From Membranipora membranacea (lineage: Eukaryota > Bryozoa > Gymnolaemata > Cheilostomatida > Membraniporidae): a stretch of DNA of 64,000 nucleotides. The stretch spans positions 16,879,501 to 16,943,500 of the forward strand of contig OU612070.1 in assembly GCA_914767715.1 (NCBI GenBank), written 5' to 3'. Made by a program: the position numbers and the translations under genes. This document shows, piece by piece, positions 9,828-51,162 of the stretch (position 1 is its first letter; every line of letters begins with the position of its first letter). The notes under the pieces were generated by a model. It did no database searches. It worked only from the letters and a program-made list of their open reading frames with translations, and was not told where the DNA came from.

Positions 9828-24129
<14,302 letters not shown>

Positions 24130-27132: not shown

Positions 27133-27260
27133 CTGTGCAAAATCAGTTCCTATTCAGAGCTTATTCCAAGCGGGATAATGATTGTATAAATAGATGAAGT
27201 TATACCTACATTGTATAATTGTAATATTCTACGTGCAAATTATACCGACATTGTATAATT
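27133..27260 (+). repeat. Left terminal inverted repeat and subterminal repeats of EnSpm element
   Basis: The TIR at 27133-27156 is followed by TATACC-TACATTGTATAATT (27201-27220) and TATACCGACATTGTATAATT (27241-27260). Similar TATACC-TACATTGAATAATT occurs at 51014-51033 near the right end. Such subterminal repeats are transposase-binding sites in CACTA elements. The left end lacks the first two bases (CA) seen at the right end. Confidence 0.8.
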
Positions 27261-27494
27261 TCATGCATAATTGAAAGCAATTGATAGTTGCCTCCCCTTT
27301 GATAATCCACACTCATTGCAAAACAGTAGCATTATAACACAAGCAAACAGAGTGAATAGTTGGATAGCCAAACAGGCAAGGACTAAGTACTAAGCTTCAT
27401 TACCAAGAACAGTCAATTGATACACGATTACAAATTGCACTCAGTTCACCCGTTCAGTAGAAATTAGACAGTGCTATTGACGCCTGTAATACTG

Positions 27495-30400
27495 ATGGCA
27501 GAGAACAATTTCGAGCACGAAAATTTGCGAAGATGCCCGGTACTTAATGGCTGTGGCGGGATGTTGTGTAAGACAACATATTACAGGCATCAAAGAAAAA
27601 GAAACTGCCGCCCAAAGAGGCCTAGAGAAGAGGATCTAAATGCTGAGGAGAATAACCAGAGGTTAGTAAATATGTGTAATATGTTATATAAAGTAACATA
27701 TAATGCCCGACCGAAATTAATGAAAGCGAGTGAGAGATTTGTCATTCGGTGGAGAAAATACACACTGATCATTACTCTCCCAACTAAACAGCACTGGTCC
27801 AAAGACAAGGTCATCACTATCCCATAATGCCCATCCCCCTAGCCGATGTGATGACTTAAGTTGATAGATGTGGGTTGCTACTACAAACCTGTTTTACAAG
27901 CCTGCTTCTGTAATATTTATATCAAATTCAGGGAAAAAGTACAGGAAGGTGTTGATATATTTTGGGTAAGCTTGTATATCTCATACAAGCTATAAGGATC
28001 CCCAGTATTATATGTGTTCAGCAGTATTGGTGCCAAGTGGCCAGTAGCATTCTGCAATGCCAACCTGACCAATGTTATTTATTTATAGACGACACACTCC
28101 ACCTGAACTACTGGTGATGCTGCAGAGAATATTTATAGCAGGTTTTCTAAGCCTCCAGAGTAAATGCAACATTTCAGATAGAACATTGATGGCTATCGTC
28201 AAGTTTCTTCTTGTGTTTCTCAGTCTCATGGCGGAAGTTCTGGCCTTAGAGATTCTTCGAGACTTTGTGAGACTGATACCACGCAGCCATGAAACACTAT
28301 GCACAAAACTTTCATTAAGTCGCAATGACTTCCAAGAGTATGCAACATGTCTAGAGTGTCACTCATTGTACAGGAAAATAGATGTTACCAGTGGAAGGGT
28401 GGAACTCTGCTCATTTATACGCTGGCCGCAGCATCCCCATCTTCAAAGAAGACAACAATGTAAAGTCAAACTTCACACTGGCCGCATAAATAAACCTTTC
28501 AAAGTGAAAGGCACCTATTGTTATCGCCCTGTCTCAAAATACCTTCAAGAATTTGTCTTACAAAACAATTTCTTAGAAAAATGCAATGCATGGCGGGATA
28601 GAGAGGTCAGAGAGAACTACATGGCTGACATTTATGATGGTTCAGTGTGGCAGTCAGAGTTAACAGGCTACTTATCCTCACGAAGCAACCTGTACGGGAT
28701 GGTAAATATAGACTGGTTCCAGCCTTATAAACACACCCAGCACTCCATAGGCGCAATATATATGGTTATCCTGAATCTCCCTCGTTCAGAACGCTTTAAA
28801 GAGGAAAATATTATGTTGATAGGGATACTTCCAGGACCATCTGAACCACACCTGACCATTAACTCCTATTTGTCTTCAATTGTCACAGACCTCAGCAACC
28901 TAGATCGCGGCATACTAATGGTAGACAGCACTGAAACAAGACACAGTATTTATCGCTTTCGTTTGCTTTGCTGTTCCTCAGACTTGCCAGCTACAAGAAA
29001 ACTTGGTGGATTTCTTTCCTTCATGGCAAACCACGGTGAGATTTTATAAACAATATTTGTAAAACTCGAAGTCTCGTTGTGAGAGGTTTAACGTATAACC
29101 TGATAGGCGAAGAGCAGGGATGCCCAAACCAGGTCCCGTTGGTTAAATGTGGCCCATTACTAAATTTTAAGTGACCCCCTTTGCCCTCGCTTGGTGCTAG
29201 TGCCTCTTGATTGATTCATGCATGGCGTGAATGTATTTCTGATAAGTCATTGCACTGTGCTACAGCCAAAAATACAGTATGGTCTTTATTCTGACAAAAC
29301 TGGAATTGCTTACTTCTGACTAGAGAACAGAACTAGAGTACATCAGTACATCAGAACACCAAATATTGGTTCCACTGTTCAAATACAGTTTTGCCCCTGA
29401 ATGGAGTGATCCTCCAAAATTTTACAAGCTCTCCCTCTTATTCTCTAAATTGCTATTATTCCACATGAATGACAATTAGCAGCAGTGTCGTATTTCCTTA
29501 TTCAGAACATGAACTTGTGATTATTAGTCTGTGTGCAAATATTAGAACTTCCAACACATCAAACTAGCCCTTAGGAAAAATTTTTCTTCTAGCGCTAACA
29601 ATAATAACCAACCCAAACTACATTTGGCCCATGAGAAAAAGTTTGGGCAGCGCTGGATTAGAGTGTCTCCAAAATATCTGATCTTTCATCTCCCCAAAAT
29701 AAAAGCAGAAGAAATCAAAGCTTGGATATTAATCATTGCACTGAGTGACATTCTTTAGCAGATGTAAAGTTAGTGAAGTTAACCTCATGGGGGGGGGGGG
29801 GGCTACAATAATTGGGTTTATGTTAGAACAAAATTTGTATAGTTTATTGTTGTAAGTTAATCCCATCAATAATTGGGATGTCACGTATGTCTTGTAACAT
29901 TGCTGCATTAAAATTTGCAACATGTTTGTATATTGGTAACCAAGCTTCATTTTCCCCTAAAAAAGATTTCTTTCTTGTCTTAGGTTGCAGTAAGTGCCTC
30001 AAACAGTTTCCGCGTATTCCAACAGCAAGTGGTGGTCAAAAACCCGACTATTCTGGATTCGATAGAAATCATTGGATTCCACGTAATGGTGCTGATCATA
30101 AGCGAGCAGCTAAAGCCACAAAATCAGCCAAAACAGATGCCGATCGCCAAAATCTCGAGTCAACTGGTGCTCGCTGGACTGAGCTGTACAATCTTGAATA
30201 CTTCTGCCCGATAACAAATCACCTGATTGACCCTATGCACTGCCTATATCTGGGGATTGCCAAGACCATGACCAAATATTACTTGAAATCAGAGATCATT
30301 GATAAGAATAGTGTACAAGAAATACAGCGAATGATGGATGAAATACGCGTTCCTCAGACGGTCGGCAGAATACCACGGAAAATCGCTAGTGGCTTTGCGA

Positions 30401-33400
30401 GTTTTACTGCAGACCAATGGAAGAATTGGACTTTAATTTACAGCTCCACTGTTTTGAAACCACTGATTGGCAACCGCCACTACCAAGTATGGATGATGTT
30501 TGTGAATGCTGTCCGTATGCTCACAAAGAAGGTGGTTTGCAAGACTGACCTCAGGATGGCAGATCAACCTCCAGGGTAATAAGGTAACTGGTTCGGAATT
30601 GCCCTCTCACGTTAAAACCTTCCAAAATGAAGAGTTGCCCTCTCTCTTCGAATTTTCACAGGCTTTGATATGATTGGCCCATTACATCTTACTTTTTTCT
30701 TATTGGCCTGTTCAATAACTTCATACTGATTACAATATCTGTGTTGGGAACACTGAGTTAGTTATCGATATTGCAAGTAGTCAACTTTCTGAACAGCAGT
30801 CAGACTCAGTGGCACCAATCAGTTACTTCACAGACACATGAGACCACGATGAAGAGATGATGAGCCAACTCAGCTTCACAAGAAGAAGAAGAATGAAATT
30901 AGAACAGCTGTGAATGGACTTGATTGAATCAATTTGTTGTAGCTCTCAGGTAAATAAATGTTATTTAGTATTTATATTTGGTACACTTCTCTTCTACTAC
31001 TCAGTTGTGAGTGAAAAATGAGTAGACTAACTAAGAAGTCTAGCTAGTAACTGTTAGTTACTATCACTACTAGTAGCTTTCTGTAGTTTGCCAATGGTAC
31101 CAGTCCAATGTACAGTGCAGTGTAATACCAAGCAAGGAGAAGGACTCCTAAGAGTTGTAAGAGGGGAGGGGGAAGGCTCATACAAGTGCAAGGAGTTTAC
31201 TCCTTACTCCTCGCTTTGTTGTTTGTTGGTGGTGGCATGTTTAGGTGGGCAACTCTCGTGCAACTAATTGTCTAGAACTGTTATTGCTAATCTACTATGG
31301 CTACATGTAGGCCTACATACTTTACATTGTAAGGAAATGCCCCCTCTCTTTACTACAACTACAGCCTATGTAGGCTGGGTCTTGAATTTGTATAAAGTGT
31401 GTGCATAGGCTTTGCCTCGGCGCAACTGACGGATCATTATTGCTTCATGTCAACCATTCCCAACTGTCTGAGACTGGTGGGGTCACCCTTAAATACAAAC
31501 AGCAAAACTATATACATATTAGTATACACTTTATTTACTGATCAAGCATGCGCATATAAGACCAAGTGGTACATCATCTAGCTTAGTAGGCGAGACCTGC
31601 TTTTAGCTTCGTTCGAGAATTGGCCACTAATCAATTGAACTATGCTCACTCTTGTGTGAACTATTTGCGAACAAATTTATCTAAGGAGCGAGGATATTGA
31701 GCATTTAAGTTGTAATGATCTTTCGGTTTACAAAGCACAGCTCATGCTAATTGAAATATTCCCTGGTCTATAATGTAATAAAGAATATACCAACCCCGAG
31801 CACCAGAGGAAGGAAACCAGTGCAGACCTTGCCTTTTGCCAATGGTATTGAATTCAAATGATTTGTTGGCTGTACAGAGTCTCAACTGCGTCACAGTGGT
31901 CATTTCATTATAATAAGCAGTGATCGGGGAGGGGGGCGGATTGCATATGATATTACATGTGTGGGCTCTTTGAGTTGCAAGCATGTACTTCGCCTTAATT
32001 CAAGGTCAACCACTGACAACTATTGGTTATAGTGGTCTGTAGTTGGAGAGTAGAGAAATTGGTTACTGAGAGAAACTAGACCATTGCCAGCTTGCACACA
32101 ATTGCAAAAGTTTCCCAAATGTAAATCTTCATCAATAGAATGGTGTATTCAAGTATTGTAGAAGTACTAGCTCTCTAGAGTATAACGCTGGATAAATTAT
32201 TCGTCTTGATAATTTGGGAAAAAAGTAGATAGGCCTAGATACAAGAAATGACTCCTTTTGATTGCAGATTTTTTTGTATTTTAGTCTACATTGTAAAGCA
32301 ACACAGACCGCAGAATAGTACTGAGAACAGTACAATGAAGAAGAGAGTGTTTGGGTGGTTTATAGCAGATGTGATACAACTCGTAGTATCAATAGTCGTT
32401 CAGCTTACTCAATTCAAACAGGTAAGCAGACAATCAAATTTTCATTTTCGGTTGTAAAATTTGATTAAGTTGCAGCAGGGAACTGACCCAGAAAGGCTTG
32501 AGATGGCTGGGGTTATAAGCATCGATATCTCCACTGTTACACTTGCATAGAGCATCGTTAGTAATATAATGATATAAATGTCAGGTGATATGTGTAGGCT
32601 AACTGATGATAATTGCGTCGGTGTAATCGTTGAAGTATCATGGCATAAATTTGGTAAAAACTGCTTGAACACTGGCAGGCCTCAGCAAGAAATTTTCATT
32701 GAAGCCGGCCAGTTAGTGTAATTAGGAGTTCAGTGACTATCGAAGTTGTGCTCTTTTTTTCATGGAGGGAACAACTCATTCCAACTCGCAACATCAAGTC
32801 ACCTCTTCCCTATAATCCACCCTCCTTGCCACAGCTCATTATCTTGAATGATCATTTTAGTTACAAATTTGCTGGCGTTATGTGCTGATCAAACCTATAG
32901 ATCGAGTGTTTCCATTCCAAGACACCAGATATAAAATTTCACAAACTTCTTCACCAACGGCTGGCAAATCTGTTTCCATCATAGGGATTGTAGATTTAAC
33001 CAGGTCTTTAAGTGTTGTGTTATTTGTAATTTGGCAACATGCTAGAATCAGGCTCTCAATGCAGAGAAAATTGAAGGGTCCAGGGATGAACCTTGTAGCA
33101 GCAAAGCCTTGTTATAAGACTGCAAATAATTTGAATGCAAATAATGTACTTAGGACATAGGAATGTATTATATTCATACTTTATCACATCATCAACTAAA
33201 TATTTGTTGCAGAGAACACAGGAGAAAGACTGATTCAGTATGGCATGATAATGGCAGAGTTACGCATCAGAACCTTTGGTGGTTTGAATTCTGTCCTGAG
33301 AAATCTTGATGTACCGAGTGAGTGTCTGAGTGTCAAATAGTTACATTATTATGATTCATGATGGGTCATGATATACTCTTCGCTACCCTGACGCAGTGAT

Positions 33401-36400
33401 CATTTGTATTTAATTGTCCAAATCAAGGATACCATCGCAGTGATCATTTGTATTTGATTGTCCAAATCAAGGATACCATCGGTAGCCTAATTGGTAACCA
33501 TATCTCATACTCATTGAAAGACCCCCCTCCCTCCCTTCACCTGCTATCTACCTTATCAACCTAATTAGTGGTTAACTAATTAGATTGATAAGGTAGATTG
33601 CAGGTGAAGGAAGGGGGGGGGGTGAATGAAATGATAATGAAATCTGTCTCTTAAAGTATTGTCAATTGTTCGATTGTGGTTATCATGGGGCATTTAACTT
33701 CCCAACATATGTTGGTGTGTGGGTAATTCTAGGTCACAGGCCCTAAAAAAAATTAAACAGCATAAAACTTGTTTCTAATTTATAGTCAACTAAACGTATA
33801 GCCTTGGGAGTAAGTATTAGCTAAAGTTTAGTTTAGCTAGTCTTGAGATGACTTAATGTAAGCAAGCATTAAATTTTGGCTAATGAAGGTTGAAGTCCAT
33901 AAAAAGAAAAAAAGGGTGGGCGTATGTTTGCTACTCTTGAAGTTAGCTTTTTCAAGCCTGCGATACTTTACTAAAGCAATTTATCACTATCGCATCACTC
34001 GAAATTATTGCCCACTTGGTCTTTCAATTAGACAAAATCACTCCCAAATCGCTCGCTCAGAATGAAAATAGTTCAATCATTGACTGAACGATTTGAAAGT
34101 GAGACCCCTAGCAGGTATTGCTCACTCACCTGGTGAGCGATCAGATTGTGATTTTGGTTTTTAAGTGTTGTGCTATTTGTAATTTGTTAAAATGTTAGAA
34201 TCCGGCTCCAAATGCAATTATCTCAGTGCCCTAACTTCATATCTAGATAGGGTGAAAGAAAGAGGGCTTACACGGTTTTCATCAGTAATAATACATCTGG
34301 TAAAAAAATCCAAAACTAAGAATTGCGAAAAAAATTCATACTCAGCCATTCATATTTGTTGAGCCGACCTCAGCTGTTTCAGGGGAAACAATTGGTCCAT
34401 AGTCAATATGTTATATAATATGTGCCGAAATGTGAGTTGCTGGCAGTCAATGTAACATTGTGTATACCCTAAGAGAGTTAAGTATTTGCAGCAGGGAAAA
34501 TTCACAAATAGCTACATTTAAAGCAAGCTCACATTTGCTCTCATTTCTTCATATGGACTCCCTACTCCGCTAGAGGAGTAATTTACTGCAAATCATCTTT
34601 AGACAACTATCCTGAATATTATGTAAGATCAAGTTTATCGTCCTATTGTATTTAGAGTGATATATGAATATCTCAAAAAACTCAATGTTCACACCCGTGT
34701 ATATATATATAATATGTAGTTTTAGATCAGAAGATGATTTGATGGTATTCAGTATTTAATTGCCAGAAGATTAAACCGTGAGTTACTTCAATACCATTGG
34801 ACCCCACTTTCAATGATGGGATTACTCTAGTGGAGTAATGTTAGTTCAATAGGAAAAGTCTGCATTTCGAGAAAATGGCTTGAAGTAATAAAATTATGGC
34901 TAGCCAACATTTTCTCAACTCCGTCACTTGACATTAACTTCCAGTGGGTGACCTCACGTTCAAAGTTTTCAGATACTCGGGTTTTAATGAGCTCATTGGA
35001 TGGTTGTGACAGGGTTGTCACATCCAATTCTTGAGAAAGGCACCCAAGTGCCTTCGGAGTTCACCTCTATTACAAAAACTAAGTGCAGACAACCATTGCA
35101 GTACTAACAGTCTGCTGAATAACAATAAAAAAAGCATGGCTGTAAATGCTGTTGGCAAATTCCCACATGATTATAATATAAGTTGTATGTCAATTAAAAT
35201 ATTTTCACCCCTGCATTTCCGGTTGCTTCAATCCTAGTAAAATCCAAGTAAAACGATGTTGTCTTGTGTTGATGGCTGGAGGGGGAGCAGCTCCAAATAT
35301 ATGCAAATTAGATTAAAATTTTTCTTGAGGTAGAGAATGTTTTACTTTTTGTCACCATGCTCAGTAAATAACCTAACAAAGAGTCAAGTAGATGTCGAGC
35401 ACATAGTGCTTGCTTTCCGATCTAGTCAATGCAATGTCACAGTGTATGTTATGTCATTATCCCTATCGTTTTATCCAATTTTTCTACATTTGGATTCGCT
35501 TCTGGTGTCACCAGTAAAATGGGAGGAACTTGAAATGTAGGCATTTATCACAGAACTTGTAATGGTTCTGGATCAAAGAAAGAAGAAATATGTCTTCATC
35601 CAACCAACTTAACATTATTGATCGCCAACCACCCAACCAACGCTACTCCATATTGAAAAGTTTCCCCACTCCTGATTGCTAAAATGAATTATTCTGAGCC
35701 ATGATTTTTGCGTCATATTGTGTACTCTGATCTATACTTCAACAGTGCCTCTGTTAGAAGGGAATTAGGGGGGGGGGGGGGGTTAATGTATGACACCTGA
35801 AGCTTTTGAACAAACCATCGGAGTGAGCATTTGCTAATGTTGTTTCACCTTGGGCCTGACACTGAGCTTATATATATTATATCTGCTTTCGCTTTGCATA
35901 CTTTTGTCTTTTATGATAGTATGGTACTTCAAAAAGTGCTGTTTTGATGTGGCCGCATGGGCCTACATACATCTCAATTCGGAGTTTAGTGGACAGTCAT
36001 AGCTTCATCATATTCTATAGACGGCATACAATAGATAGCTGTCAGGAGGTCATTTCTCACAGATATACTCATATATGGTGTCCCAAACTCCGCACATAAT
36101 TTTTTTCTACAACAATCTTACCGTTTTTTTTTACTTCACATCATGAATTAATTTCTACATACAAGATTATTTTTTACAGTTTTACTATTTGGAGGAGTGA
36201 ACGTAGAATGGGGACAGTGACTCAGAAGATATACGACAGAGCATCATACTCAGCAGTTTTCTCACACCTTGTCACCCACCACCAATAACTCCAGCTTCAA
36301 AGAAGCACACTCTGCTGATGCTCTCTTTGTTACACTTGGAACTGAAGTTGTGAAGACACCAGGGACAAATACCCCCCCCCCCCCACCCAAGGTATGTATG

Positions 36401-39400
36401 GGCTTGAATGATCACCGATGCTTATCTATCAATATTTTGGGAGTCACCAGCAAAATTATTAATCCTCTGTTTCATGATTGTTGCTACATCACTTAGACGC
36501 GTATTATATATAGTTTTTTTTGGTGATGGGTTGCGGTAAATATCGAATATACCAAATATAAGCAAATTGAGGATACTTTAGCCAGCGACACGTTGACACC
36601 CTCCCCCTAATTTAGCCACAATCGCTCTGAAAGTATGACACGGTGATTGATATACATTTTTCTTCTTTTCAGACTATAATTGAGACTCATGGTGGTATAG
36701 AGCGGACACCAGTCATGACACATCAAATATGCACCATAAGCACCTCCTCCGATAGTGAACTGTCACAAAAGTCACACTCTTATATCTGCGCAGCACTATG
36801 TTGTCACTGCACACTGTTGAATCAATAGATCAAAAAGTAGTGCCACATAAACTTTCCCCATATGATAATTGTTTGGGATGGGCACATACTCTCATTTTAT
36901 CAAAGTTTCAAGCTGTTCAGTGTTCACATTTGTATTGATATATCAATTGACTTTAGGGCATTTCTTGCGCCTAATGGTATTTTATAATCCTGTTGACAAT
37001 CGCAGGAGGCCTTCTAGGGTTGTTGATTGTGAATGCCAATGTTTTGTGGGTTAACATATGCAAGAATAACATCTAAAATTTTTAGTATTTTTACTGATTC
37101 AATTTTTTTTGGACAGTTTATTGTTCTCACCTCGTCGATTATTCATAATTTTTCATTCCAATGCTTTGCATCCTATTCAGGTATCAGTGAACTTTAGTTC
37201 AATGCAGGTATTCCTACTGTGGATTAACATGTATATCAGTTATATTTAAGAGTACAATGAGTACGATTTGTTTTTTAAAATAAACAGCTTTCAACTCATT
37301 TCCTAAACATGATCAAAAGGTTCATCACTCGACAAATAGGCTGAGCACTAGGTTCATGTTGATGCACTGATCTTACATCTTGTCATATATCATTACATGA
37401 TACATTCGGTTGTCGGTTGTCACTGAACTGTGTGGGTGAGTCCGGTTGAGGTTGGTGAGAGGGTCGGTCTACCTCTGTATGTCCGAAACAAGAAGTGTCA
37501 TTTGTATAGCGCACACATACATATTGAGGTTTGATCACAGCAATGAACTCCCTCTTCATTGATCACAGAATGGTTTCTCAGGCATTGTGTTTAGCAATGG
37601 CAGGCAAATTTACAAGTCGGTTTATCCCTGTGTTAAGCTTCTTATGGCTCATAGAGGGTTGCAGTTAGGTGGGAATCGGTGCTGCTAGTACACATTTTTT
37701 GGCTAGTGAGGTCCAAGACTACTATCCTGGTTAGTAGTTAGTACAAGGCAGTTTAATAATTTTTAGAAATTAGTACAAAGCAGCTTACCAAGATAGAGGA
37801 TTATAGTACGATGGCACTGCTTGCATAAACTTTGCTAATATTGAACCCTCCTTGCTATAATCATCACCATGGTAGTATCATTGCTCGTAAAGAGTTAGTT
37901 ATTTTTTATTTCTCATCTAAACAAAATTCCCTGGGTACAAATTATGATTCTGTAAGACCGGTGTGAGAGTATTTGTGTTCAGATATATACAAAATAAGTC
38001 TAGTTGTACACTTTTTTGTGTGTTTCAACACCTCATCAATCATTTCAGTTATTGCTGGGTGGTTAAAAGTTATATAGATAGATCAGGAATCTTGTTTAGA
38101 AGAAGTTTATTTAAACTTTCCTTCTACACCCTCTTTGTTGGATGAAGATGTTCTGGGCATGGAGCGCAAGCTCTGAATTTTATGGAATGTGGGTAGAGAG
38201 AAGCAAGGGTAAATCAAACCAAGGAGTAACAGCTTCCCCTGTTACTTCTTGATCAAACAGACCTATAGTTCAATGGCACAATAGAACTCGTTTGTACGGA
38301 ATGTCTCATGGTCACTGTAAATTCTAAATATATCAATGCAGGCGATAATATTAAGCTGATAGCTTTGAAAGATTATCTGCTACAAGACTGTCCAGGCAAT
38401 TATTTATCGCTCTAAATCTTAACTGATGTAATGGCCCTACAAGCCCCTAATCTGGCAACCCAGCGTCCTGTCTAAGCTACCGGTCTCATATATAACAGAA
38501 TAAATATCAGTGTGGGTATTCCTTTGGCAGGAATTTGTTGAAATGATTGGAACAAGGAGTAAAAGTACTCCTTGATTGGAACTCCAGACTATAGCTGCAT
38601 TGTGGAAATCCTGTATTTGGTAGACCACATGGAACTGATGCATCGATGTCGTTTTGCCCGATACTAGCCACATCACTCAATTACATGCAATTGATTTGAA
38701 ATTAAATGCTAAAAAAATTAAACTTTTTTAGTTGAAAATTGTATTAATCTGGAGTAGGTTGGTGAAATCAGTCTTGATATTCATTGATAAACCTTTAGGT
38801 TGAAAGAACTTTCAACATACCAAACTTTTCAATGCATGCATTCAGTGGCTACAATGTACAGTTCAATCTGCCTGATCACTTTCAATGGGATTAGCTTATT
38901 GAATTGAACAAGATTCTCAGTGTCTATTTGCCAATTACCTTTTACTTGACATCAACATCTTAGCCAAGCAGCTGAGTTCAAGCATAATTGGATGTATTGT
39001 TGTTATCCAAGTTGTTTACCCATGAAGTCATAATCAAGATAAGCCAGTCAGAATGTTAATTTTGTTGACATTGGCATTCATAGGCAACCTGCACAGAACT
39101 TAAAAGGTACCAGTAGATTTAAAAATGGTTAACCCTTTGGGTAAACACACAGATTATCGTAATGAGCTAGCAGCAGATTATCAAGAGCTGAGCCAGATAC
39201 AACCACTGTATGTTGTATCGGGCTCAGCTCTTGTAGTTGACCAAGTAGCAGAGGAAAATCAATGAAACACCGGATAATAAGGGCGCAAGAAATTTTTTTG
39301 CAAAGCAATCTCATTTTTGGCATAGTTACGCTGTACTATGATGAGCTTGGAAGCAGAGTTTGGTGAAATAATTTGATGAAAATATACAAATGGAATTTGG

Positions 39401-42400
39401 TCAACCATCTAGTATTTTTCATAAAAGGTTAAAACTTCCCGCCCCCTCACTCTTCTGTCAAAGAATGATCATGATTGTACTTTCACCAAAACAACCATCA
39501 TTGTAAACATGTACATTCGCAAAATTAAAAACTCACCGCATTCATTATCAGCGGCAAAAGACAGGAAGTTAAGTCAGCTTACGATGACATCCTGTCTCTC
39601 TAATTCCACAAGTGTGTCATGATGACTTGTTACAAGTGCAATGGAATGTGTGTGTAGGATTAACTACCAGCGACAATTAATTCGATAATTAAAAATTTTC
39701 ACAAGGAATATTGAGGTAATTAAGTCATTATGCCTGTTAAAGGCTAACCTCCCTGCTTGTGGCACACAAGCTGACAGCTTAAAATGTATTACTGTAAACG
39801 TTGTTGTCTTGTCACTAGCCTAACATTTAAATACTATCTGTACTAGTGCCAACACCTGCTAGGGAACTACCATCCAAGAGTGAGAGAGAAAAATGCCACA
39901 ATTGCTTCCTGTACACCATATAACTGAGATGGCTGGGAATGATAAAGTTTAACATCAAGAGCTCCTTTGTAGACAGGTAATGAATGTATACCAGGTTTAC
40001 AATAGATTTACCTTTGCCTCATTTTACCCACATACCATAGCATTCAGAGCTAAATCCTTGCTCAGAGCCATTCAATATCTCAAAAATCCCAAGGAGCGTA
40101 GATTAAGACTATGCCAATAATGAGTATTAATACTGCATGCTTTGACACCAAGTATGTTTTCTAGCCAGGGGCGTATATTCTAAAAAATTTCACTCACTGA
40201 CTTTTTAGAGATGAGCATAATGATCGGGCACAGCCCGATCCACACGCCGTAGGCGTGGCGGGGAGGGGCGCTTAAGCGCCCTCCCACCACGGAAATTTTT
40301 GCATATCGGTAGCAAAATAGTGCAAGCAGAGAGGTATTTCAATCGCTCACTGAGCTGTTGGGTACTTTCAGAAAACAACTCAATAGCATTAGAAGATTAC
40401 GGTAAAAATGCTCCAGTTATAAAGCACCCATTTGAAAAAAAACTGACCCCGAAGGGATTCGAACCCACAACAATCTTATTAACAGTGATTATTAGGCAGA
40501 CGCTCTACACACTGAGCTAATATGAGTGCTAATATACGCCACTGTTTCTAGCATCAGTCAGCATATTTTCGGTAGTTCTGTGGAGAATATGGCCTCATTC
40601 GCATATCACTTTTCTCCACTTAGGCATGTAGGGCGATTAATAGTAGATCCTCGCTCAACTGGTGAGCGATGTTGTACTTTTTTATTAGTAGCAAAGTTTT
40701 GTGATCATTCTGCTAGCATAATTTAGCTGATGTATTCTAGTTATGCAGTTGCTGCCTACATTCTCAGATTGCACAAGATATAGCTTAGGGTAGGCCTACA
40801 GTACAACACAGAAGAGTTGAACATAGGTATTTTGTCGGCTCATCATACTCAATACTAAGAGTTGTGCTTACAAAAATTGTGAGGAGGACAATTCGAATGG
40901 AATGCTTTCATTGTAGCAGCTAACTTGCCTGGTCATCTAAATACAAACTCATTGAATACAATGTCAATCCAATTATATAATATTGACTAGAACTGGGCTA
41001 GAACTGTAAAGGATTATACTATAACAATACAATAGCAATAATGAATGTAGTTTATTTGGCAGGCAGGGTTAATTATACAATAATGTTGCTGGTTGGGTAA
41101 TGATATATGGGGCATGAAACTCAGTGTATGTCCTGAAAATCTGAGGTCTTTAGCTCAATAATTGCTTTTTATGCCAGCTACAAAAGAAGCTTTCTCTAAA
41201 GCATCACAAATCAGTAAAATAATGTGTAGGCACATTTTCTTTTTAGCAGCAGCATGGCTTCGAATGGTCTGACACCACAAATTTTTATATCATTGGATTG
41301 CTCATCTTCTGAGGAACGCAGTGGTTACTTTCTTTAGTAAACAAGGAAAATATCTATTAACATATCGAAAGCTTTATGGAAAACAGTTAAAAAATGATAT
41401 AAATTGCTGCCCTGCTGCCGGCTTATGTATGCAATTATTCCACTTTCATGGGGGCAAAGAAATTCACAGTTTGTGAGTGTGTCCTGAAAATCTGAGGTCT
41501 GTAGCTCAATAATCGCTTATGCCAGCTACAAAAGAAGCTTTCTCTAAAGCATCACAAATCAGTAAAATAATGTGTAGGCACATTTTCTTTTGAGCAGCAG
41601 CATGGCTTCGAATGGTCTGACACCACAAATTTTTATATCATTGGATTGCTCATCTTCTGAGGAACACAGTGGTTATTTTCTTTAGTAAACAAGGAAAATA
41701 TCTACCAACATATCGAAAGCTTGATGGAAAACAGTTAAAAAATTATATTAATTGCTGCCCTGCTGCCGGCTTATGTATAAAATTATTCCACTTTCATGGG
41801 GGGCAAAGAAATACACAGTTTGTGAGTGTGTCCTGAAAATCTGAGGTCTGTAGCTCAATATTTTCTTATGCCAGCTACAAAAGAAGCTTTTTCTAAAGCA
41901 TCACAAATCGGTAAAACAATGTGTAGCCAAATTATCTTTTGAGCAGCAGCATAACTTCTAAAGGTCTGACAGCACAAATTTTTATATCATTGGATTCCTC
42001 ATCTCCCGAGGAACATAGTGTTAATTTTTTAGTAAAAAAGAAAACATCTTCCAACATTTCGAGAGCTTTAGTGAAAACAGTTTGAAAATGATAAAATTGC
42101 TGCCCTGCTGCCGGCATATGTATGCAACTACTCCATTTTCATGGCGGGCATTTTTTGAGTATGATCTGAATATCTGAGGTCTGTAGCTCGACAGCTTATT
42201 TTGTTTGCAACAAAAATGGCTTCCTCTTTACAATCATTATGATTTATAGCCATATTGAGAGTATAAAAAATTTGGCACCAACTGGAACCCAGAGCTCTGC
42301 GTTGACGAAATAGAGAATTATCCACTGAGCTACACAGACATGTTGTATCAAAATAATAGTGTCTGCCTTAAATTTAGTGGAGCATGAATTCTGTATTACA

Positions 42401-44078
42401 ATAATTACATTACATTACTGATGATGAATACACACACAATCAGCATATTTGTGCACAGCTAAATCATCGCAAATCAATGAAATAATGTAGAAGCACATTT
42501 TCTTTTGAGCAGCAGCATGGCTTCAAATGGTCTGACACCACAAATTTTTATATCATTGGATTGCTCATCTTCTGAGGAACATAGTGGTTATTTTCTTTAG
42601 TAAACAAGGAAAATATCTACCAACATATCGAAAGCTTTACGGAAAACGGTTAAAAAATGATATAAATTGCTGCCCTGCTGCCGGCTTATGTATGCAATTA
42701 TTCCACTTTCATGGGGGGCAAAGAAATACACAGTTTGTGAGTGTGTCCTGAAAATTTGAGGTCTGTAGCTTGATAACTTTTTATGCCAGCCACAAAAGAA
42801 GTTTTTCGCTTTATAATTTATATGAATTTTGGCCTTTTCGAGATGTGGAGATAACTCGGGTTCACAAAATTACCTTATATGCCCTGAGACTACTCGTCAC
42901 ATTCTGCACCGAAGTTGAAAATCTCTGTGGAAAGGAGTTCATCAAACCAAACTTCCATATGGCCTGCCATCTCGCAAAAGTAATGGAGGAGTACGGCCCA
43001 GTCTATTCATTTTGGTGCTACAGCTTTGAGAGGTAATCCCCTGTAATTAATCAATCAAAGTAGTAGCCTAAAAATGTATCAAGATTCCCATATATATAAA
43101 TACGCCAAAGTTTCAGACTAGAAAGTTCATAATTTAAGAGCAATGAGAAAGACAATTATCTAAGTGATAACTGAGTAGAGTGCTTGAAATTGTGCAATCA
43201 ACCAGCATGAAATTCCTGATAACATGAGTGAAAAGGTTTAATTTTGTTAACATTTTATTATACTATACTTTAGGTACAACGGAATGCTCGGGGATTTTGC
43301 AGTGAATTCTCATGACATATCAACACAAATGATGAGGAGATTTCTTGCAAACAGAGAGTTGTGCAGCATTCTGTGGCCTCCAATAACCACTCAAGACATA
43401 ATGGATTCGCTTGCCAATAATGAAGTGCGAGGCACCATATCAACAGTCGGAAATGATATCACTGCGCATGCTTGCATTGCATTAAGTGACAGTTTTTGTG
43501 GCAGTCAGTTCTCACTTGATCAGGTATCACTAACCCAGATATACTTAGGGTTCAGTTCAAGCCAGTTTTTTAACCTGGATAAGCTAAATTTCTTTTTGTC
43601 AATGTATCAGACAATATTTCCAATTCCCTACAATCTGCCAAACTTACACAGGAAATTTGACACTGTCCGCTCTGTTGTATACATGGGTGAGCAGTTTCAG
43701 CCTGATCAGGAAACCAGAGTAAACTGCAACATAATTCGTGCACGCTGGCTGAAGGCAGATTATTCTGGTATTATTGACCCAAAAGAAAAACTAGCAAGGG
43801 CTGGCGCAGTGCGTGAGATTATTGTCACAAACCATTCAATGGCAGACGGTACAACTGGATCAGTCATATGGTTGAAGGTTGACTGGTTCAATATGCACGA
43901 TACTCCCTATGTGATGGGTAGCCATACACAGATATACCACAGGACTTATTTCTTTGAAGGTAAACATAGCTATGTACCTATTCAGCGTGTAATTTCTAAA
44001 TGTGCACTGAGGAAGATAAACTACCAGAATATAGAGGTTTTCTTGGTGATCCCTCTAGCTGGGCAATGGGGGCTATGA
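27495..44078 (+). CDS. EnSpm/CACTA transposase (5 exons, 884 aa)
   Basis: Exons: 27495-27661, 28089-29035, 29984-30575, 42889-43032, 43274-44078. Phases agree at every junction and no internal stop occurs. Start chosen at the ATG giving MAENNFEHENLRRC. An N-terminal zinc-finger-like cluster has C14, C20, C25, H32 and C38. CLECHSLY (C143, C146) precedes the catalytic region. IDWFQPYK has a candidate catalytic D264; LPGPSEPHLTINSYL near 303-317 and LIDPMHCLYLGIAKT (D454) are hallmark motifs of this transposase family; PVYSFWCYSFERYNGML near 606-622 is another. It cuts and joins the element ends. Intron 3 is 12.3 kb and carries other candidate exons, a hAT element and a tandem array. The least certain junction is the exon 3 donor (GG|GTAATA) with the exon 4 acceptor. 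An open frame throughout suggests recent activity; expression is unknown. Confidence 0.85.
29115..29655. mobile_element. Non-autonomous hAT element in transposase intron 2
   Basis: Left end CAGGGATGCCCAAACC and right end AGTTTGGGCAGCGCTG are inverted, the classic hAT end type, with CATTTGGCCCATGAG near the right end. Flanks GCGAAGAG and GATTAGAG agree at five of eight positions, so the 8-bp duplication has probably decayed. No coding sequence. Confidence 0.7.
30576..32330. other. Start of transposase intron 3; dispersed repeat only
   Basis: No supported exon. Near 30761-30800 there is a 40-bp word starting TTATCGATATTGC that recurs at 54619-54658 in gene 2 intron 8. Confidence 0.5.
32335..32421 (+). 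CDS. Candidate first exon of unidentified gene inside EnSpm intron
   Basis: An ATG opens 29 codons, MKKRVFGWFIADVIQLVVSI and on to QLTQFKQ, ending at a good donor CAG|GTAAGC. The hydrophobic middle could be a signal anchor or short membrane segment. It is not similar to any family I recognise. The next plausible exon (33213-33317) does not fit its phase directly, so an intervening exon would be needed. Confidence 0.35.
33213..33317 (+). CDS. Candidate internal exon of unidentified gene inside EnSpm intron
   Basis: Acceptor ttgttgcag, then an open frame reading ENTGERLIQYGMIMAELRIR and TFGGLNSVLRNLDVP, then donor A|GTGAGT. A second frame is also open for 31 codons. Not recognised; could be cargo of the transposon, an alternative transposon transcript, or chance. 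Confidence 0.35.
33391..33479. repeat. 44-bp tandem duplication
   Basis: CGCAGTGATCATTTGTATTT followed by the same 24-bp continuation occurs twice, back to back, with one difference. Confidence 0.85.
33523..33622. repeat. Long hairpin, arms about 46 bp, loop 7
   Basis: Left arm 33523-33568, right arm 33576-33622, loop TGGTTAA. The inner 34 bp pair with two mismatches (CTTCACCTGC ... CTAATTAG) and the outer parts are a C-rich run opposite a G run. Confidence 0.85.
33625..36200. other. Transposase intron 3, no supported feature
   Basis: Contains a 14-G run at about 35769-35782 and short open frames without splice support. Nothing else could be assigned. Confidence 0.45.
36206..36828 (+). CDS. 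Candidate two-exon 3' part of unidentified gene in EnSpm intron
   Basis: Exon 36206 or 36225 to 36391 contains the frame SPTTNNSSFKEAHSADALFV ... PGTNTPPPPPK with donor AAG|GTATGT. It joins in phase to 36673-36828 (acceptor ttcttttcag), reading TIIETHGGIERTPVMTHQIC and ending ICAALCCHCTLLNQ before TAG. The first exon has a competing open frame (DSDSEDIRQSIILSSF) and a run of 13 C, so the frame is uncertain. No family recognised. Confidence 0.3.
36830..39180. other. Transposase intron 3, short palindrome only
   Basis: A perfect 22-bp palindromic hairpin CAAGGAGTA-AAAG-TACTCCTTG lies at 38553-38574. No exon supported. Confidence 0.45.
39182..39233. repeat. Compact hairpin, 22-bp arms, 8-nt loop
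   Basis: CAAGAGCTGAGCC-A-GATACAAC pairs with GTTGTATC-G-GGCTCAGCTCTTG, one mismatch, loop CACTGTAT. Shape and size approach a small RNA precursor, but the stem is at the short end for a miRNA. Confidence 0.75.
40166..40544. mobile_element. Non-autonomous hAT element with TTTCTAGC duplication and tRNA-like core
   Basis: 379 bp between two copies of TTTCTAGC (40158-40165 and 40545-40552). Ends CAGGGGCGTATATT and AATATACGCCACTG are inverted. It contains a GC-rich hairpin (40260-40285, GGGAGGGGCGC-TTAA-GCGCCCTCCC) and a - strand tRNA-like sequence at 40441-40528. Lies in transposase intron 3. Confidence 0.92.
40441..40528 (-). repeat. tRNA-like sequence inside hAT element
   Basis: Read on the - strand: A box TAGCTCAGTGTGTAGAGCG, then after about 35 nt B box GGGTTCGAATCCC. 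The anticodon stem does not pair and the variable part is long, so a tRNA-derived module, not a tRNA gene. Confidence 0.65.
41122..42790. repeat. About 350-bp tandem array, 4-5 units
   Basis: The marker CCTGAAAATCTGAGGTCT recurs at 41132, 41483 and 41832, with a variant near 42165 and again at 42747. Each unit contains CATGGCTTCGAATGGTCTG or close variants and TGCTGCCCTGCTGCCGGC. The third and fourth units are diverged, and 42180-42470 holds extra DNA with a degenerate tRNA-like piece (- strand, 42255-42345, A box TAGCTCAGTGGATAATTC). The array ends about 100 bp before exon 4 of the transposase. Confidence 0.85.
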
Positions 44079-44318: not shown

Positions 44319-44319
44319 T

Positions 44320-45820
44320 GCCGTCATCATGATTCATCATGAGTGAAATCTATACCATGAAATCTAATTGAACCCCATGTCTATCATAAATATGTAATGA
44401 CAAAGGCATCTGATCGCAGAAGATCATCTTTCAAACTGCGAAAACAGAATGAGCTTTATGACTTGTCAATTTAAATTACATAATCAATTTCCTTTCACAA
44501 ATACATTTGTTTACTTTGTGGTATCATGCCCTCTAGAACTAATTCAATATTAATTTGTGAGAAGTGAAACCTGCCTGAGCTGGCGCACTAGTATATTTTC
44601 ATTCAATTTACTGTCAAAGCGTCTTCATCAAAGAGTGTAACTGCACTGCACAGTGTGTTTAGTATCTTTGGCTCAGCGGAAGCAATAGAAACAGTCTGCC
44701 TCACGGAATGAACAAATATTTGCGCTGTTTGTCTTTGAGCAGGAAAACTATAACATATTGGCTCTGCTCCAGAAAAAAAGCATACACTGCATCAAGCCAG
44801 AGCAAATTTACTAAAATATCAGCCATTGGCTATGGCTCAAAACTTTCTGTGATATGCCTGACACCTTGACCTGATGTGTAATATTGTGGTCAACAAACAC
44901 AGTCTGAATATTCTAAGCATTGATGTTAGAACTTTACTTCTCCCTTTTGGCTTGAGTCTATTTCCATTTACAGTTCTCATCCGCTTGAACGGAAGCATTC
45001 AAGTAGCAAAATCAATAACAAAATGTTAATCCACAGTCCTGTTTGATTCTGCCTAGATGTGGGTAAATACTCAGCATATTCTCTCCAAGTATGAATAGAA
45101 CTTTTCGCAGCGGCTTATTTCTCAGTCTCTGATTCATTTCATGGCTAGACTCTGGATATTATGATGGTCTAGACAATCATATGTATTTATGTATGAATGT
45201 ATGTATGTATGTATGTAAGTATTTATGTTCCTCCTAAAATCAGCAGTGGGTTATACTGGAGTGAAGCGCTAATAGCAATAATATTGCGTAGAATATCATT
45301 GGATGTTTTTTAAGTAATCAAACTATAGCTTGGCAGTTTTTTCCAGGAAGCAAATTTTTTGATCATTGTATCCACATATATTTTGCAATCAGCAAAGTTA
45401 TACATGTTTGCAACTCTAATTGCCAGACTTTGAGTTGCTCGTATGCAAGTTTTATTGTGAATGATTTATAATGTATCTGAAAAAAATATTTTGGGGACTT
45501 AGATTAAAAAAATATCGAGTTATAAAACATCTGACATAGAAATATGTAAGAAGTGACAGAATGTTCCACGATGGTGCTCGTCCTAATCATGAGGAAATAA
45601 AACAAGACTATTCATCACAAAGCATTACGATGGCGCACTTACAAATTATAACAAAGGAGATAGACCCTATAAATCTTTATATATATACATACACACAAGA
45701 ATTTTGGGTACTTAATAACTATTTTTTGTTTAAAATAAAATATTATCACCATCATGATGCGCAAAGATATCTTGCTTCTCTGATCAATCAATATTGATGT
45801 GTTAGATTTGACGCCTCATT
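44320..45820. other. Spacer between convergent transposon genes; TATG microsatellite
   Basis: No supported exon. A (TATG)n-like tract lies at 45181-45230. Confidence 0.5.
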
Positions 45821-47686
45821 TTAATTATTAGTTACATGCTCAGTTAGTCTCCGTCTGGGTTTACGATATTTGATATGGATATCGAGGTCTATCATCGCTT
45901 GACTTATCTCAGGGAGTCTACCGGGTGGAGGTTTAGCGATTAAGCCACCCTCGTTGTCAGATTCATAGTCAGAAATTCCGGTTGAGGTCATGTTATCCAT
46001 AATGTCTCTGTGTAGGTTGTGATCACGGCTTGCTTTACGCCGTGCTTCAAAAACACTGTGACGTAGTGCAACGCGTCGATTATAATTTATAAATGATGCA
46101 TTTTCTTTTTTGCCCTCCTTTCTCTTCTCATTTGTGTATCTAGAGTGGAGGGCATTGTTCAATTCTCTGTCACTGAAGGACGGGTTTGCCTCCTTAATTG
46201 TTTTCATCAAATTTTTCTTTATGCCTTGATTGGCAGCACTTGTAAATCCTTCTGTTATGACGAACTTCTCACTTCTATCGAGTGAATTGTAAAGTAGCTT
46301 TACAATTTTTGACAGTTGGCCGCTGATGTTTTGAGTTGACAGTTGACTCTTAGTTTGTCGTGATTTAAAATCTTCTATCGTTACCATAGCCTTTTTTAGT
46401 TCATCCTCTAGGTCCTTAATCTTTTGTGTTTTGAAACTTAGCTCGTCGGTGAGCGTTTTAATGATCATAACAAACTCTTGGGTGTTGGCCTGAGTCTCAC
46501 TGCTCCGTGAATCATGGACAACCTCTGAAAATTAAAACTGGCCATTACTTGCTGCAATTTAAGTGGTATAATTTGAAGGAGATAGCTCAAAGTAAAGGTG
46601 TGGCTACATGTCACGATGTAATCACAGGCCGATGGCATGTCTAGACATGCTAGGCCGATCTCACACTGCTACACAGGCCTATGAGTTAGTACTCGATGGT
46701 TTAGTGAGTTATAGTGGGGTAATAAATCAGGTGCCTATATTGACCAATTAACTCCCTCAGTTCAATCGATTGACCAATGATATTTAATGGGCGTGTTAAC
46801 AAATGACCGGATATGTCATATTAAATCCGGGTCTTTGTCACTTAGAATCTTCACCAAATAAAATTTCATTCCTCTGTAAAATTGATTTTCCTATGCTATA
46901 CTATGGATGTCATGTCAGGACAGCTTCCATTTCCAAGTGATACAGCTATTACCTTCCATATTTTCACTACAGCACCACTCCTATCTTTGTAGTTATGGTC
47001 TTTTTTATCATAAATAGGAGGATGTGATTTAACTACAGATATTATCAACTCCTCCATTTTTGATAGCCTGTCACAATTTGATAGATGACGTGTTTAACCG
47101 CGTAATTATTTAAGCAAGCAATCAACAACCAATCAGCATAGAGGATCGTCTAGATCACTCGGGCAAAAGACCAACAAGTTGGATGTCCACTTAACACGAG
47201 TAATCACTCGTGCAGATCCACCGATTAACCACTCGTGACCCCAAATCGATGTAAAAATCGTGACATGTAGCCACACCTTAAGCCATTGATGAAATTCAAT
47301 AAAGATTTAATTGGTATTTATTTGGTTAACAGCAGCCAGTCAGGATGTAACATATTTAAATTGATTTCTAGTTAATTATCTTCAGAATAGATGCAAAAGA
47401 GATTGGATGTCAGTTTTGTTTCCAGGTGTATAGTTATAGCTAAATGTTTACAAAAATTGTTGTATGGCCTATTTACCAGCTATCAGTAGAGAGAATCTAT
47501 GATGAAATATTGAAATAAATCCTAAATGATATCTTGCCTACCTTCAAAAGATGAAGATGCTGCTTGTGGATTGGATAGGTGTGACGTTTCAACATTGCTC
47601 GTTGAAAAAATTTCCTCATTTCCTGATGAACTCAAAAAGTCAGCGATCATTGAAGCATCAGCAATATCTATTCGGTCTCCACTCAT
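45821..47686 (-). CDS. Second EnSpm protein, coiled-coil and basic (TnpA-like), 2 exons
   Basis: Exons 47686-47542 and 46524-45821 (- strand) join in phase 1 (donor AAG|GTAGGC, acceptor ttttcag) to give 282 residues. The start gives MSGDRIDIADASMIADFLSS, an acidic, serine-rich N-terminus. A heptad-like coiled coil follows (TLTDELSFKTQKIKDLEDEL). A helical region with FSDRELNNALHSRYTNEKRK is next, loosely recalling BEN-type or other DNA-binding helices, and the C-terminus is basic (KYRKPRRRLTEHV). It converges on the transposase gene, inside the same element. Plant CACTA elements carry a separate DNA-binding protein besides the transposase, so this role is inferred from position and composition, not from recognised homology. 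The intron houses another inverted-repeat element. Confidence 0.7.
46595..47279. mobile_element. 685-bp element with 23-bp inverted repeats (AAGGTGTGGCTACATG)
   Basis: 46595-46617 is perfectly complemented by 47257-47279. The element lies wholly in the intron of the TnpA-like gene. No coding sequence and no clear target duplication (flanks GTA and AAG), so the superfamily is open. Confidence 0.75.
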
Positions 47687-48208
47687 GATGTCTGTTTGCA
47701 GAAGTTGTGTTAGAAAGTGAATGATCTTGCAGATTTTCTCTGATTTATTGAAAATTGATAAGTCAAATTTCCCTCTCCAATTGAAAAGCCTGCCAGGATT
47801 GGACAGCACCCCATAAAAATATTCAATGCGATTCGCTCAAATATTTTAGATGTACCATCAATGGTACTACTATTATTGAAATATTGTTAGCAGATTAGCC
47901 AATAAAAGAGGGGGACCAGGCTATCAGCGCAACATTGGTCATTTAGTGAAACCTTATCTTCCGCATAGGATGCAGTCATCTAGAATTAAGCCTCTGTTAC
48001 CAAAATTCATCTGTGGACTTCATGACAAGGAGACAGAGGATAGAACTCATGTTTATAGTAACAAAGCACAACAGAAGAGGTAGAGACTACATTAGCACAG
48101 CTTCAAGACGTGATCAGTGTGAACCGAAAACTTTGTATAAGTCTTGAACATCATTACAATCACATTTGTAAGGGATGTATTAATTTTTGTTTTCTTTGAT
48201 CACAGTAT

Positions 48209-48441
48209 GTTTATTGTAACTTCTTCTTTCTGGGCAGACAATGAGCAGGGGAAATATCAAGTGTGGCTTGTCTTTTTTGTTTGCGTATTTGAATCGATTT
48301 AAAGTCCTCTGGTCTAGGCGGACAGTGAATCAACATGTATTCGAGAATTTTACTCGGAACTGATACAGAACCAGTATAGACCTTGAAATCCACCACAGCA
48401 CTGTCCCTGTTTGGCCAACGTTGTTGAAACCAAAAACACAC
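48209..48441 (-). CDS. Unidentified last exon on minus strand, PAS overlapping stop
   Basis: Open from 48441 down to a TAA at 48211-48213. The end reads SVSVPSKILEYMLIHCPPRP and then a basic tail (IQIRKQKRQATLDI ... CLPRKKKLQ). The acceptor could be ggccaaacag near 48405. AATAAA overlaps the stop codon (CAATAAAC), so the transcript would have almost no 3' UTR. Lies in the EnSpm element; no family recognised. Confidence 0.4.
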
Positions 48442-48481
48442 ATATATTTTATTTTAATATGTCAACTTATTTGTGTTTCAG

Positions 48482-49851
48482 ATCTTGGCAGTTAGGCTGT
48501 AAGAGAGAGATCATTCTGAATTTGGCTTTGAGGTACTTGATTTACTTTGGCCCTAAAAAAGATACAGGATACCTGCAAGAAAAGGAGTAAGTAAGTAAGA
48601 AGTAATATTTCTGTCCCGCTGTAACCAATGAGTTGCCAAGTTGCTGTAACATAACTCTTCGAATGACTAGGAATTAGTCAATATTTGATGCACAAGACCA
48701 ATATCAGGCTTGTACAGTATTGATTGTGTGGATCAAATTAACGAGGTTTTCAAGGCTCTCCATCTTGTTTTTTTTGGGTTCATTCTCGCTGTGGAATGTC
48801 TCTGCAACTGTATGGGGCTAAGTAACAGAGAACTATTGCTCATGACCCTCTGAACGGAAGATTAGCTCAGTATTGATTGATTCGGCAAATTATTTCTGAT
48901 AGGATAATGTATGGAATTTGCATGAGTTCAATATAAATTGCCCTAACAATAGAAAAAAATTCAAAACCAGTACGCATGGTAGTGTAAATTGGCCTTTGAG
49001 TTCTGTTTATTGTGATTGTGATATGGGCTAAGTTAAAGAACATTTGTCCCTGGTTGCTAGTGGCCCTAGCGTGATGTTGTTTGTGGAAATTATTTTCGCT
49101 ATCAGATTGGCCATTTCCTAGAAAAGGTTCCATGGATAATGTTAATCTTAAATTCACAGCATGTTGCTGAATCAATAGAGCTTATGTTTAACTATTTACA
49201 GGTGATATGCTGTTAAAAAGTGAAAGGCAGAGGTGTCTAATGGCTTCTGATGCGCATCATCATATCGAGTTGCCATCGGTCAGCGAGATTTACAAGTCTC
49301 ATGTGAGTATTACAGCTGAATATCATCACTGAAATATTTCAGTCTACCTGAAATTAAAGATGATTTACTAGTTTCCATTGCAAAACATGTATTTGGACAG
49401 GAATATTTCAGGCGCATTCAGTGCAATTCACTACGTTTATATGGGTATTTTAAGCTCATGCTAGATCAAACTGAGTGGCCATCTCTTGGTTTGCGTCTAT
49501 AAACTGCTTTCATGCCTAGTGTCTGAGATTTGCCTGGACGTTCAAAACCAATTGCCCCAGGCCTCCGTAATGAAGTAATGCAAGGCTTTGAATTGAACCA
49601 CTCATAAATTCAGTTGACCTTGTACAAGTTCTTGATGATAACTGATAGCCCAGCGTTCTCACTGAGATCAAGCTAATAGGCAGCTCCATGGCTCAAATAG
49701 TTATAGGAGGATTTGTAGCATAACTTAATTTTAATCTGATTTTTTGCAGGTTAAGATAAAGATAAAAGTGGGATTTAAAAGCTCTGGACACAGAGGACGC
49801 ATAAATATGTCAAACGAAAGGATCAAGTACATGCTCCTCTTCTACCTGTAA
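48482..49851 (+). CDS. Unidentified + strand gene near right end of EnSpm element (candidate exons)
   Basis: Three splice-bounded open segments. 48482-48586: acceptor tttgtgtttcag, frame SWQLGCKREIILNLALRYLI, donor GTAAGT. 49202-49302: acceptor tatttacag, frame DMLLKSERQRCLMASDAHHH and IELPSVSEIYKSH, donor CAT|GTGAGT. 49750-49851: acceptor tttttgcag, frame VKIKIKVGFKSSGHRGRINM and on to a TAA. The last two join in phase 0; the first does not fit directly, so an exon is missing or it belongs elsewhere. AATAAA at 50033-50038 would end the transcript. Small, basic C-terminus; not recognised. Confidence 0.45.
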
Positions 49852-50950
49852 CGCCATATCTTCATCCAAACCTGCTATCGTCAGACTGATTCACGCTCTA
49901 GTCATTGCCAACGTTCCAATGGACCCGATCAACTCAATTAATTACAAGAAGGAACATGGCAGTTGGATCCTATCGTTGTTGATCATTACCAGTTAACGCA
50001 GGATCACAATATTATGTGTATGAAAATGAGTCAATAAAGGGAGATGCATGATTATTGATTCTATCCAATCCAGTGAGTTTCGGCTATCTGTTTAGTCTGA
50101 ACCTCCCAGACTTTTGCCCCCCCCCCCGCCCTCCCGACGACGAAGCCCGACGACGACTGTTTGATCACAATTTTAATTTTCTATAGACGATTACAAAAAC
50201 ACTTTTGTTTTATTTTATTCTCACCTATCTTGTATATAGCTTCCGCTAGATGAGATAGCTATGATTGATTGTTCGCCGTAGACCTGATGTCTTGTCGTTA
50301 CCTTTTTGTCACTTTGCTTGGTTGACATACCGTGTTACAGCTAATATACCCATTTTACTAGCATGCGCTCCAATTATCAATTTTTAGCCTGACAAGCTTA
50401 TGCTACTGGCGTTTATGGTATCAATTTTACGAATCTGTGACTTGTATTGAGTTCTGCTGTGTTACGCTGATATAATGATCTTTATCTTTTCTAAGACCTC
50501 TCCGCAAACCATGAGTAATAATCTCTGTAAAATTCAATTTCTTGTTCTTCATATGCCCCCCACCCCCCCACCTCCCCCAAAGCGAGACTGAGCGACTACC
50601 TATGCTAAGTTTAGGTGATTTTTACTATGCTATACTCAAACAATTAGTGTCACCCCGTGGTGATGACTTCTTGCTCATGTTTTCGCAAGTTGCATAAACT
50701 ATCAATACATACATACAACTCACCTCACCACATACCGGGATTGACTCACATGCATCTCAACTCTGTTAAGTGAATAGAGTTTCGTATCACAGACCCAAAA
50801 CTCGTGGTTGGGACCCATGTGAGATGATAGTGTCGCTTATTCACTATGCAGTAGAGCGATGCATAGGCACAGGAGGGGATTGCAGGCGGGTAGGCATTAT
50901 TATTGCATGGACAGATGAAATTATCAGCAGAGTTATCGTGACACGGGAAA
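49852..50950. other. Spacer near right end of EnSpm element
   Basis: C-rich runs near 50117-50130 and 50555-50578. No supported exon. Confidence 0.45.
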
Positions 50951-51009
50951 AAGGGGACAACTCCACAAAATTATTGACTTAATTATTCAATTCATTGAAT
51001 AAGTTGTCT

Positions 51010-51162
51010 ACTTATACCATACATTGAATAATTATAGTTGCATAATTTTCCCAGGAATGTGGCATAATCATTGTATAAAGTGGAATAATGATGGTATAAA
51101 CATGATTATTCAAACTTATGCCTAGTGTATAATCATTGAATAGGAACTGATTTTGCACAGTG
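51010..51162 (-). repeat. Right terminal inverted repeat and subterminal repeats of EnSpm element
   Basis: TIR at 51137-51160 plus TG, giving the outermost sequence CACTGTGC read inward. Several TTGAATAAT/TTGTATAA words in both orientations lie at 50985-51136. Confidence 0.85.

Follow-up and report, generated by a model that had tools for sequence, protein, structure and literature searches.

Does the 24-kb stretch between the inverted repeats at positions 27133 and 51162 of this window represent one large autonomous transposon with a giant intron and passenger genes, or a smaller element that other elements have enlarged? The window is the whole stretch of Membranipora membranacea DNA that was analysed (64,000 nucleotides; C6:16879501-16943500), and the genome in which we searched for related copies comprises 339 Mb in 18 contigs. 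Very probably, the copy at 27133-51162 is a defective member of a young CACTA/EnSpm family, swollen from about 11 to 24 kb by two nested mobile elements. Full-length members of the family measure about 11 kb and have CACTG ends and a target duplication of 3 bp; they contain a tnp2 gene of four predicted exons and, on the opposite strand, a predicted two-exon gene for a protein of 282 aa. The features of the window copy are collected in Table 1.

Table 1. Features of the window copy and its surroundings (window positions; C2 and C8 are the sister copies on those contigs)
Feature	Position	Strand	Basis
Left target-site duplication copy, GAA, 3 bp	27130..27132		Comparison with empty paralogous site
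Left terminal inverted repeat, without the family's terminal CA	27133..27156	+	End comparison; sister copies start CACTGTGC
Transposase exon 1	27495..27661	+	Spliced model; aligned with relatives
Transposase exon 2, tnp2 domain	28089..29035	+	PF02992
Transposase exon 3, first part, broken off at 30568	29984..30568	+	Continuous in C2 and C8
Nested 12.3-kb mobile element, ends CTCCAGGG...CCCTGAG, AC duplication 30567-30568 / 42889-42890	30569..42888	+	Absent from C2 and C8
Tandem repeats of ~348-bp units inside the nested element	41102..42843	+	Repeat analysis
Transposase exon 3, rest; 42889-42890 is the duplicated AC	42889..43032	+	Sister copies C2 and C8
Last transposase exon	43274..44078	+	Spliced model; alignment of relatives
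Second gene, exon 2	45821..46524	-	Spliced frame; amino acids unchanged among three copies
PIF/Harbinger-like miniature element with a putative MADF remnant and a TAA duplication, intronic in the second gene	46596..47278	-	Perfect inverted ends; absent from C2 and C8
Second gene, exon 1 (whole protein 282 aa)	47542..47686	-	Spliced frame; genome copies
Right terminal inverted repeat, CACTGTGCAAAATCAGTTCCTATTCA reading inwards	51137..51162	-	End comparison
Right GAA duplication copy	51163..51165		Comparison with empty paralogous site
Paralogous host segment that lacks the element; its empty site lies near 61452	60684..64000		97.3% and 95.9% identity to the flanks

Ends, Target Site, and Genomic Neighborhood

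Comparison within the window shows that the inverted ends at 27133 and 51162 match exactly over 24 bp, in agreement with the original prediction. The stretch is a real insertion: elsewhere in the window lies a paralogous, empty site, and comparison with it reveals the 3-bp GAA duplication that had also been proposed. The segment carrying this empty site aligns with the left flank at 97.3% identity (26357-27142 vs. 60684-61464) and with the right flank at 95.9% (51163-53719 vs. 61453-64000). Excision as the source of the empty site was rejected, as GAA is present there once and no footprint was seen.

Several hallmarks of CACTA/EnSpm elements are found at the ends. Inverted ends starting CAC(T) are present in the family, with CACTGTGC opening the left end of the C2 and C8 sister copies, the left end of all 13 distinct short loci described below, and the right end of the window copy; the left end of the window copy lacks the first CA that both sisters have. 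Target duplications are short throughout, being GAA in the window, AGA and AAT around the C2 and C8 copies, respectively, and likewise 3 bp at 13/13 of the short loci. The predicted subterminal repeats are present at both ends, with a modest signal: all three occurrences of the motif ATAATCATTGTATA (up to one mismatch) in the window fall within the terminal 200 bp of one end or the other, and the two ends have nine 8-mers in common, a number that 1.2% of random pairs attain. A shorter motif, TTGTATAAT, had no end specificity in a window scan at one mismatch.

The paralogous similarity runs past the window to about 70305, and the sequence favors local duplication of a segment with an MFS transporter gene in it (PF07690 on joined exon pieces). 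That a second haplotype was misassembled here is less likely, given that the similarity stops near 70305 and that no counterpart of 58973-60683 is present in the 9 kb past the window. The insertion lies between two diverged, oppositely oriented MFS transporter genes, at 9.8-24.1 kb (+) and 52.1-58.9 kb (-), and the gene at 52-59 kb is the one locally duplicated past 60684. An isolated MFS first exon (26967-27073 and 61294-61400, minus strand), with stops in both duplicates, lies 57 bp from the insertion site. Other features of the window include a 542-aa open reverse-transcriptase frame at 21942-23570 (-) (RVT_1, 117 bits), which appears to be a LINE-like remnant, a C-terminal piece of a hAT transposase at 1167-1424 (+) (Dimer_Tnp_hAT, 24.8 bits), and a perfect TTGA repeat of about 35 copies at 21460-21598. 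An Rfam scan of the window gave no match.

Sister Copies and Miniature Derivatives

Genome searches with the terminal sequences gave 42 matches for the left 401 bp (best 40 of 110 candidates scored) and 49 for the right 401 bp (best 40 of 107 candidates scored). Two other copies with both full ends were found, at C2:9554265-9565226 (10.96 kb) and C8:20784195-20795250 (11.06 kb). The original prediction expected the two ends to recur together at a similar spacing; they do co-occur in these two full copies, but about 11.0 kb apart, not 24 kb. Both sisters are collinear with the window copy, and both lack window positions 30569-42888 (12.3 kb) and 46596-47278 (0.7 kb). With these two inserts set aside, the window copy is 99.24% identical to C2 (10,949 columns) and 98.88% identical to C8 (11,003 columns). 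The original suggestion of recent activity is right as regards a young family. The unusually large size that had been supposed is not supported; the extra 13 kb consists of the two nested mobile elements.

Twenty end-bearing loci were examined: two repeat others, five are one-ended, and the remaining 13 are distinct two-ended loci, all of them short (266-268 bp in 12 and 471 bp in one). The family has miniature derivatives of about 267 bp with perfect 3-bp duplications. Further partial family matches are located at C7:28486497-28490867 and C5:27887323.

The Transposase Gene and Its Interruption

The transposase coding frames match tnp2 (PF02992) at 54.6 bits against a cut-off of 28.6 in a Pfam scan, with matches to DUF1258 and DUF4218 below cut-off. 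A protein search with the spliced model returned 338 homologs at E ≤0.001, and among the 120 of these that were listed, the closest comes from Branchiostoma floridae and is 37% identical across 94% of the query. Both results sustain the earlier assignment to an EnSpm/CACTA insertion with a CACTA-type transposase. In an alignment of 40 of the 120 listed relatives, D264, D354, D454, and E614 are invariant in 40/40, and we read them as putative catalytic residues of the DDE type.

The transposase was originally described as a five-exon frame of 884 residues. The frames are indeed present (882 residues in our model), but the five-exon gene with a 12.3-kb intron is not confirmed. The apparent intron is an insertion inside an exon, because window position 30568 continues directly at 42889 in both sister copies, where exon 3 is continuous and the gene has four exons. 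It might be argued that the nested element now acts as an intron and that a slightly altered transposase is still produced: a splice from 30531 to 42851, skirting the insert, is in frame and restores an open frame of 882 aa, and the window frame is otherwise free of stops, unlike those of C2 and C8. However, the splice sites are weak, with a donor (GTGGTTTG) scoring only 6.2 and an acceptor that falls below the score threshold in the scanned stretch and lacks a pyrimidine tract. In addition, the residues beside the break are replaced by unrelated ones, and one extra residue column appears relative to the relatives. We consider such splicing very unlikely. On the preferred reading, a defective copy with nested insertions, the window copy is probably immobile by itself because the nested element cuts its transposase gene in two.

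None of the three copies has an intact transposase: the insert splits it in the window copy, deletions upset the frame of C2, and C8 has two premature stops. The view of 27133-51162 as an autonomous element is not supported. A genome search with exon 2, in which all 43 of 43 candidates were scored, found three places at 97-100% and others at ≤57%; an intact transposase of this family was found neither there nor in the end searches (best 40 of 110 and best 40 of 107 candidates). Amino-acid changes in the transposase among the three copies number about 11.5, against 36 expected from the non-coding rate, and comparisons of synonymous with non-synonymous changes give P values of 0.039, 0.00013, and 0.066 for the three pairs, a signal that is weak in single pairs. 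These comparisons, of three copies with few changes, suggest that the transposase gene and the second-protein gene discussed later were probably under selection until recently.

The Nested Elements

The stretch 30569-42888 is a separate mobile element, not an intron. Its first 1000 bp recur at 96-100% identity at the best 40 of 253 candidate places scored, window included, and its left end, CTCCAGGG, falls at the identical base in the window and in the 11 other loci retrieved (12/12), whose 12 flanks differ. Genome-wide, 111 occurrences of the 23-bp left end were counted with up to two mismatches allowed, vs. 0 for the reversed pattern. A second copy extends from a left end at C6:18121185 to a right end near C6:18108234, where it stops exactly at CCCTGAG, and measures about 13 kb from these coordinates. 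It is flanked by a TT duplication and the window copy by AC, that is, by 2 bp in both of the two copies seen at both ends. A further copy at C8:26272519, of which only the left part was seen, would be about 14 kb if it reaches its right end. A six-frame Pfam scan of the nested element found no tnp2 transposase, the mark of CACTA-related elements, and no other domain except for a RUN match below cut-off.

Some copies of this nested family carry about 480 bp extra near insert position 1031. The window insert contains a 103-bp foldback at 33521-33623, with 49-nt arms that are 92% complementary. A further nested element bounded by a 47-nt inverted pair (38169-38215 / 40005-40051) was considered and rejected, as no duplication was seen in its flanks.

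The smaller insert is of another kind. PIF/Harbinger elements are marked by inverted ends with a 3-bp TWA target duplication and by a Harbinger transposase or Myb/MADF protein, and 46596-47278 resembles their miniature elements in having perfect inverted ends (23 bp) and a TAA duplication. It also holds a putative MADF remnant (19.4 bits, below the cut-off of 22), and no transposase was seen there. On these sequence features it is taken as a PIF/Harbinger-like miniature element. A 96% match to 46595-47239 is found at C2:9575025-9575667.

The Search for Cargo Genes and the Origin of the 24-kb Length

Six-frame Pfam scans, with stops read as X, covered 30540-42850 and 44080-51162, and the frames of the two genes were scanned in 27133-30539 and 42851-44079. 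No credible cargo domain emerged from the six-frame scans, and the passenger genes that had been suggested give way to nested elements as the source of the extra length. The one match, to the RUN domain, was rejected as cargo: at E 0.00095 it reached 19.7 bits, short of the cut-off of 22, and it lies in a tandemly repeated frame of which no single stretch passes. Apart from the exons of the transposase and the second protein, the longest frames are ≤104 aa, vs. a mean longest frame of 135 aa in 100 simulated sequences, which puts the further splice-bounded frames of the original prediction at chance level.

A single autonomous CACTA element of 24 kb, whose five transposase exons span a 12.3-kb intron and which might carry cargo, could draw on the exact ends and duplication, on the in-frame splice across 12.3 kb, and on the alignment of the resulting 882 aa with relatives over 94% of the query. 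Yet the 11-kb sisters run uninterrupted through the place of the insert, the 12.3 kb is part of a separate family with 111 left ends, and the scans are devoid of credible cargo domains; this reading is even less probable than an insert spliced out as an intron. Least probable of all, to the point of being hardly credible, is that the 24-kb form is ancestral and that identical stretches of 12.3 kb and 0.7 kb were lost separately in C2 and C8: although the order of events is unobtainable from three copies alone, the limits of both stretches coincide exactly with those of independent mobile families, the AC target is single in C2 and C8, and the uninterrupted exon is the coding state. Enlargement of an 11-kb element is the preferred reading, and the nested elements would have inserted after the window copy parted from its sisters.

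The Antisense Second Protein

The antisense protein of 282 residues noticed in the original prediction was recovered as a two-exon frame, with 0 amino-acid changes among the three copies over about 660 non-synonymous sites, vs. 11.7 predicted from non-coding divergence (P 8e-6, assuming independent changes). Its frame has 236 codons, against a maximum of 205 when the element was simulated 100 times, and it is unbroken in the window and C2, while C8 lacks 13 bp near the end. The codon-usage score of the second gene, 0.055, separates it weakly from 36 intron frames (mean -0.092, SD 0.059, maximum 0.058). Taken from these sequence comparisons, the protein looks real.

Checked against protein databases, the 282-residue protein has no relative at E 10 among 5.8 billion proteins (571 candidates scored; the search needs shared 5-residue words, and distant relatives may exist), and it has no Pfam domain match. 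Its predicted structure consists of long helices at low confidence (pLDDT 62), and its sequence contains basic stretches. Together with its position in the element, these features suggest that the second protein may aid transposition by binding the ends, like TnpA of plants. Diverged relatives of the protein cluster at C5:18.87-19.30 Mb, with 53-68% identity in the longer matches, and stops are present in 3/3 of the relatives read there.

Comparison With Known Elements and Implications

The Spm/En elements of plants have CACTA-type ends, a tnp2 transposase, subterminal repeats, and a second protein, all of which the bryozoan family has in common with plant CACTA elements such as Spm/En and soybean Tgmt*. 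The second protein of Spm is spliced from the same transcript, whereas that of the bryozoan family is encoded on the opposite strand. The window copy is ordinary in kind, a new member of CACTA/EnSpm. The family would move by cut-and-paste via its DDE transposase, assisted by the helical, partly basic second protein through end binding. For the window copy itself, any further movement would depend on transposase from another source, and the missing terminal CA at its left end may block even this movement in trans.

Large size has been described in other CACTA elements, including Tgmt* at 20.5 kb (accessible part of PMC2613891); unlike that of large plant CACTA elements, the size of the window copy is due to nested foreign elements. 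Among animals, SmTRC1 of Schistosoma is a CACTA-related element of 4.5 kb and, like the bryozoan family, a tnp2 (Transposase_21) element, but the accessible text of PMC1636069 gives it ends starting CCC and a 2-bp duplication, in contrast to CACTG ends and a 3-bp duplication here. The enlarged En/Spm families of Chondrus crispus are likewise large CACTA elements, of 16-20 kb with 4-5 ORFs as far as the available portion of PMC6431247 describes them; their extra ORFs contrast with the extra length of the window copy, which consists of nested elements without recognized coding. In the part of PMC4158355 available, the authors identified no transposons in CACTA transposase introns.

Overall, what looks like passenger genes and a giant intron can prove to be insertions nested in a transposon, and comparison with its sister copies elsewhere in the genome decides the matter. 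The family clearly exemplifies a young CACTA lineage that has miniature copies but for which the searches found no intact transposase, and the nested family, non-coding at 12-14 kb, is unusually large for a non-autonomous element. We would give about even chances to two further readings: that the 282-aa protein is a lineage-specific TnpA analog needed by an animal-type CACTA family, and that the insert is one of a family of giant non-coding DNA transposons mobilized in trans, which has about 111 left ends and whose copies, where their size could be gauged, are very similar and 12-14 kb long. The conserved antisense second protein offers a test case for whether such elements require a TnpA-like partner.
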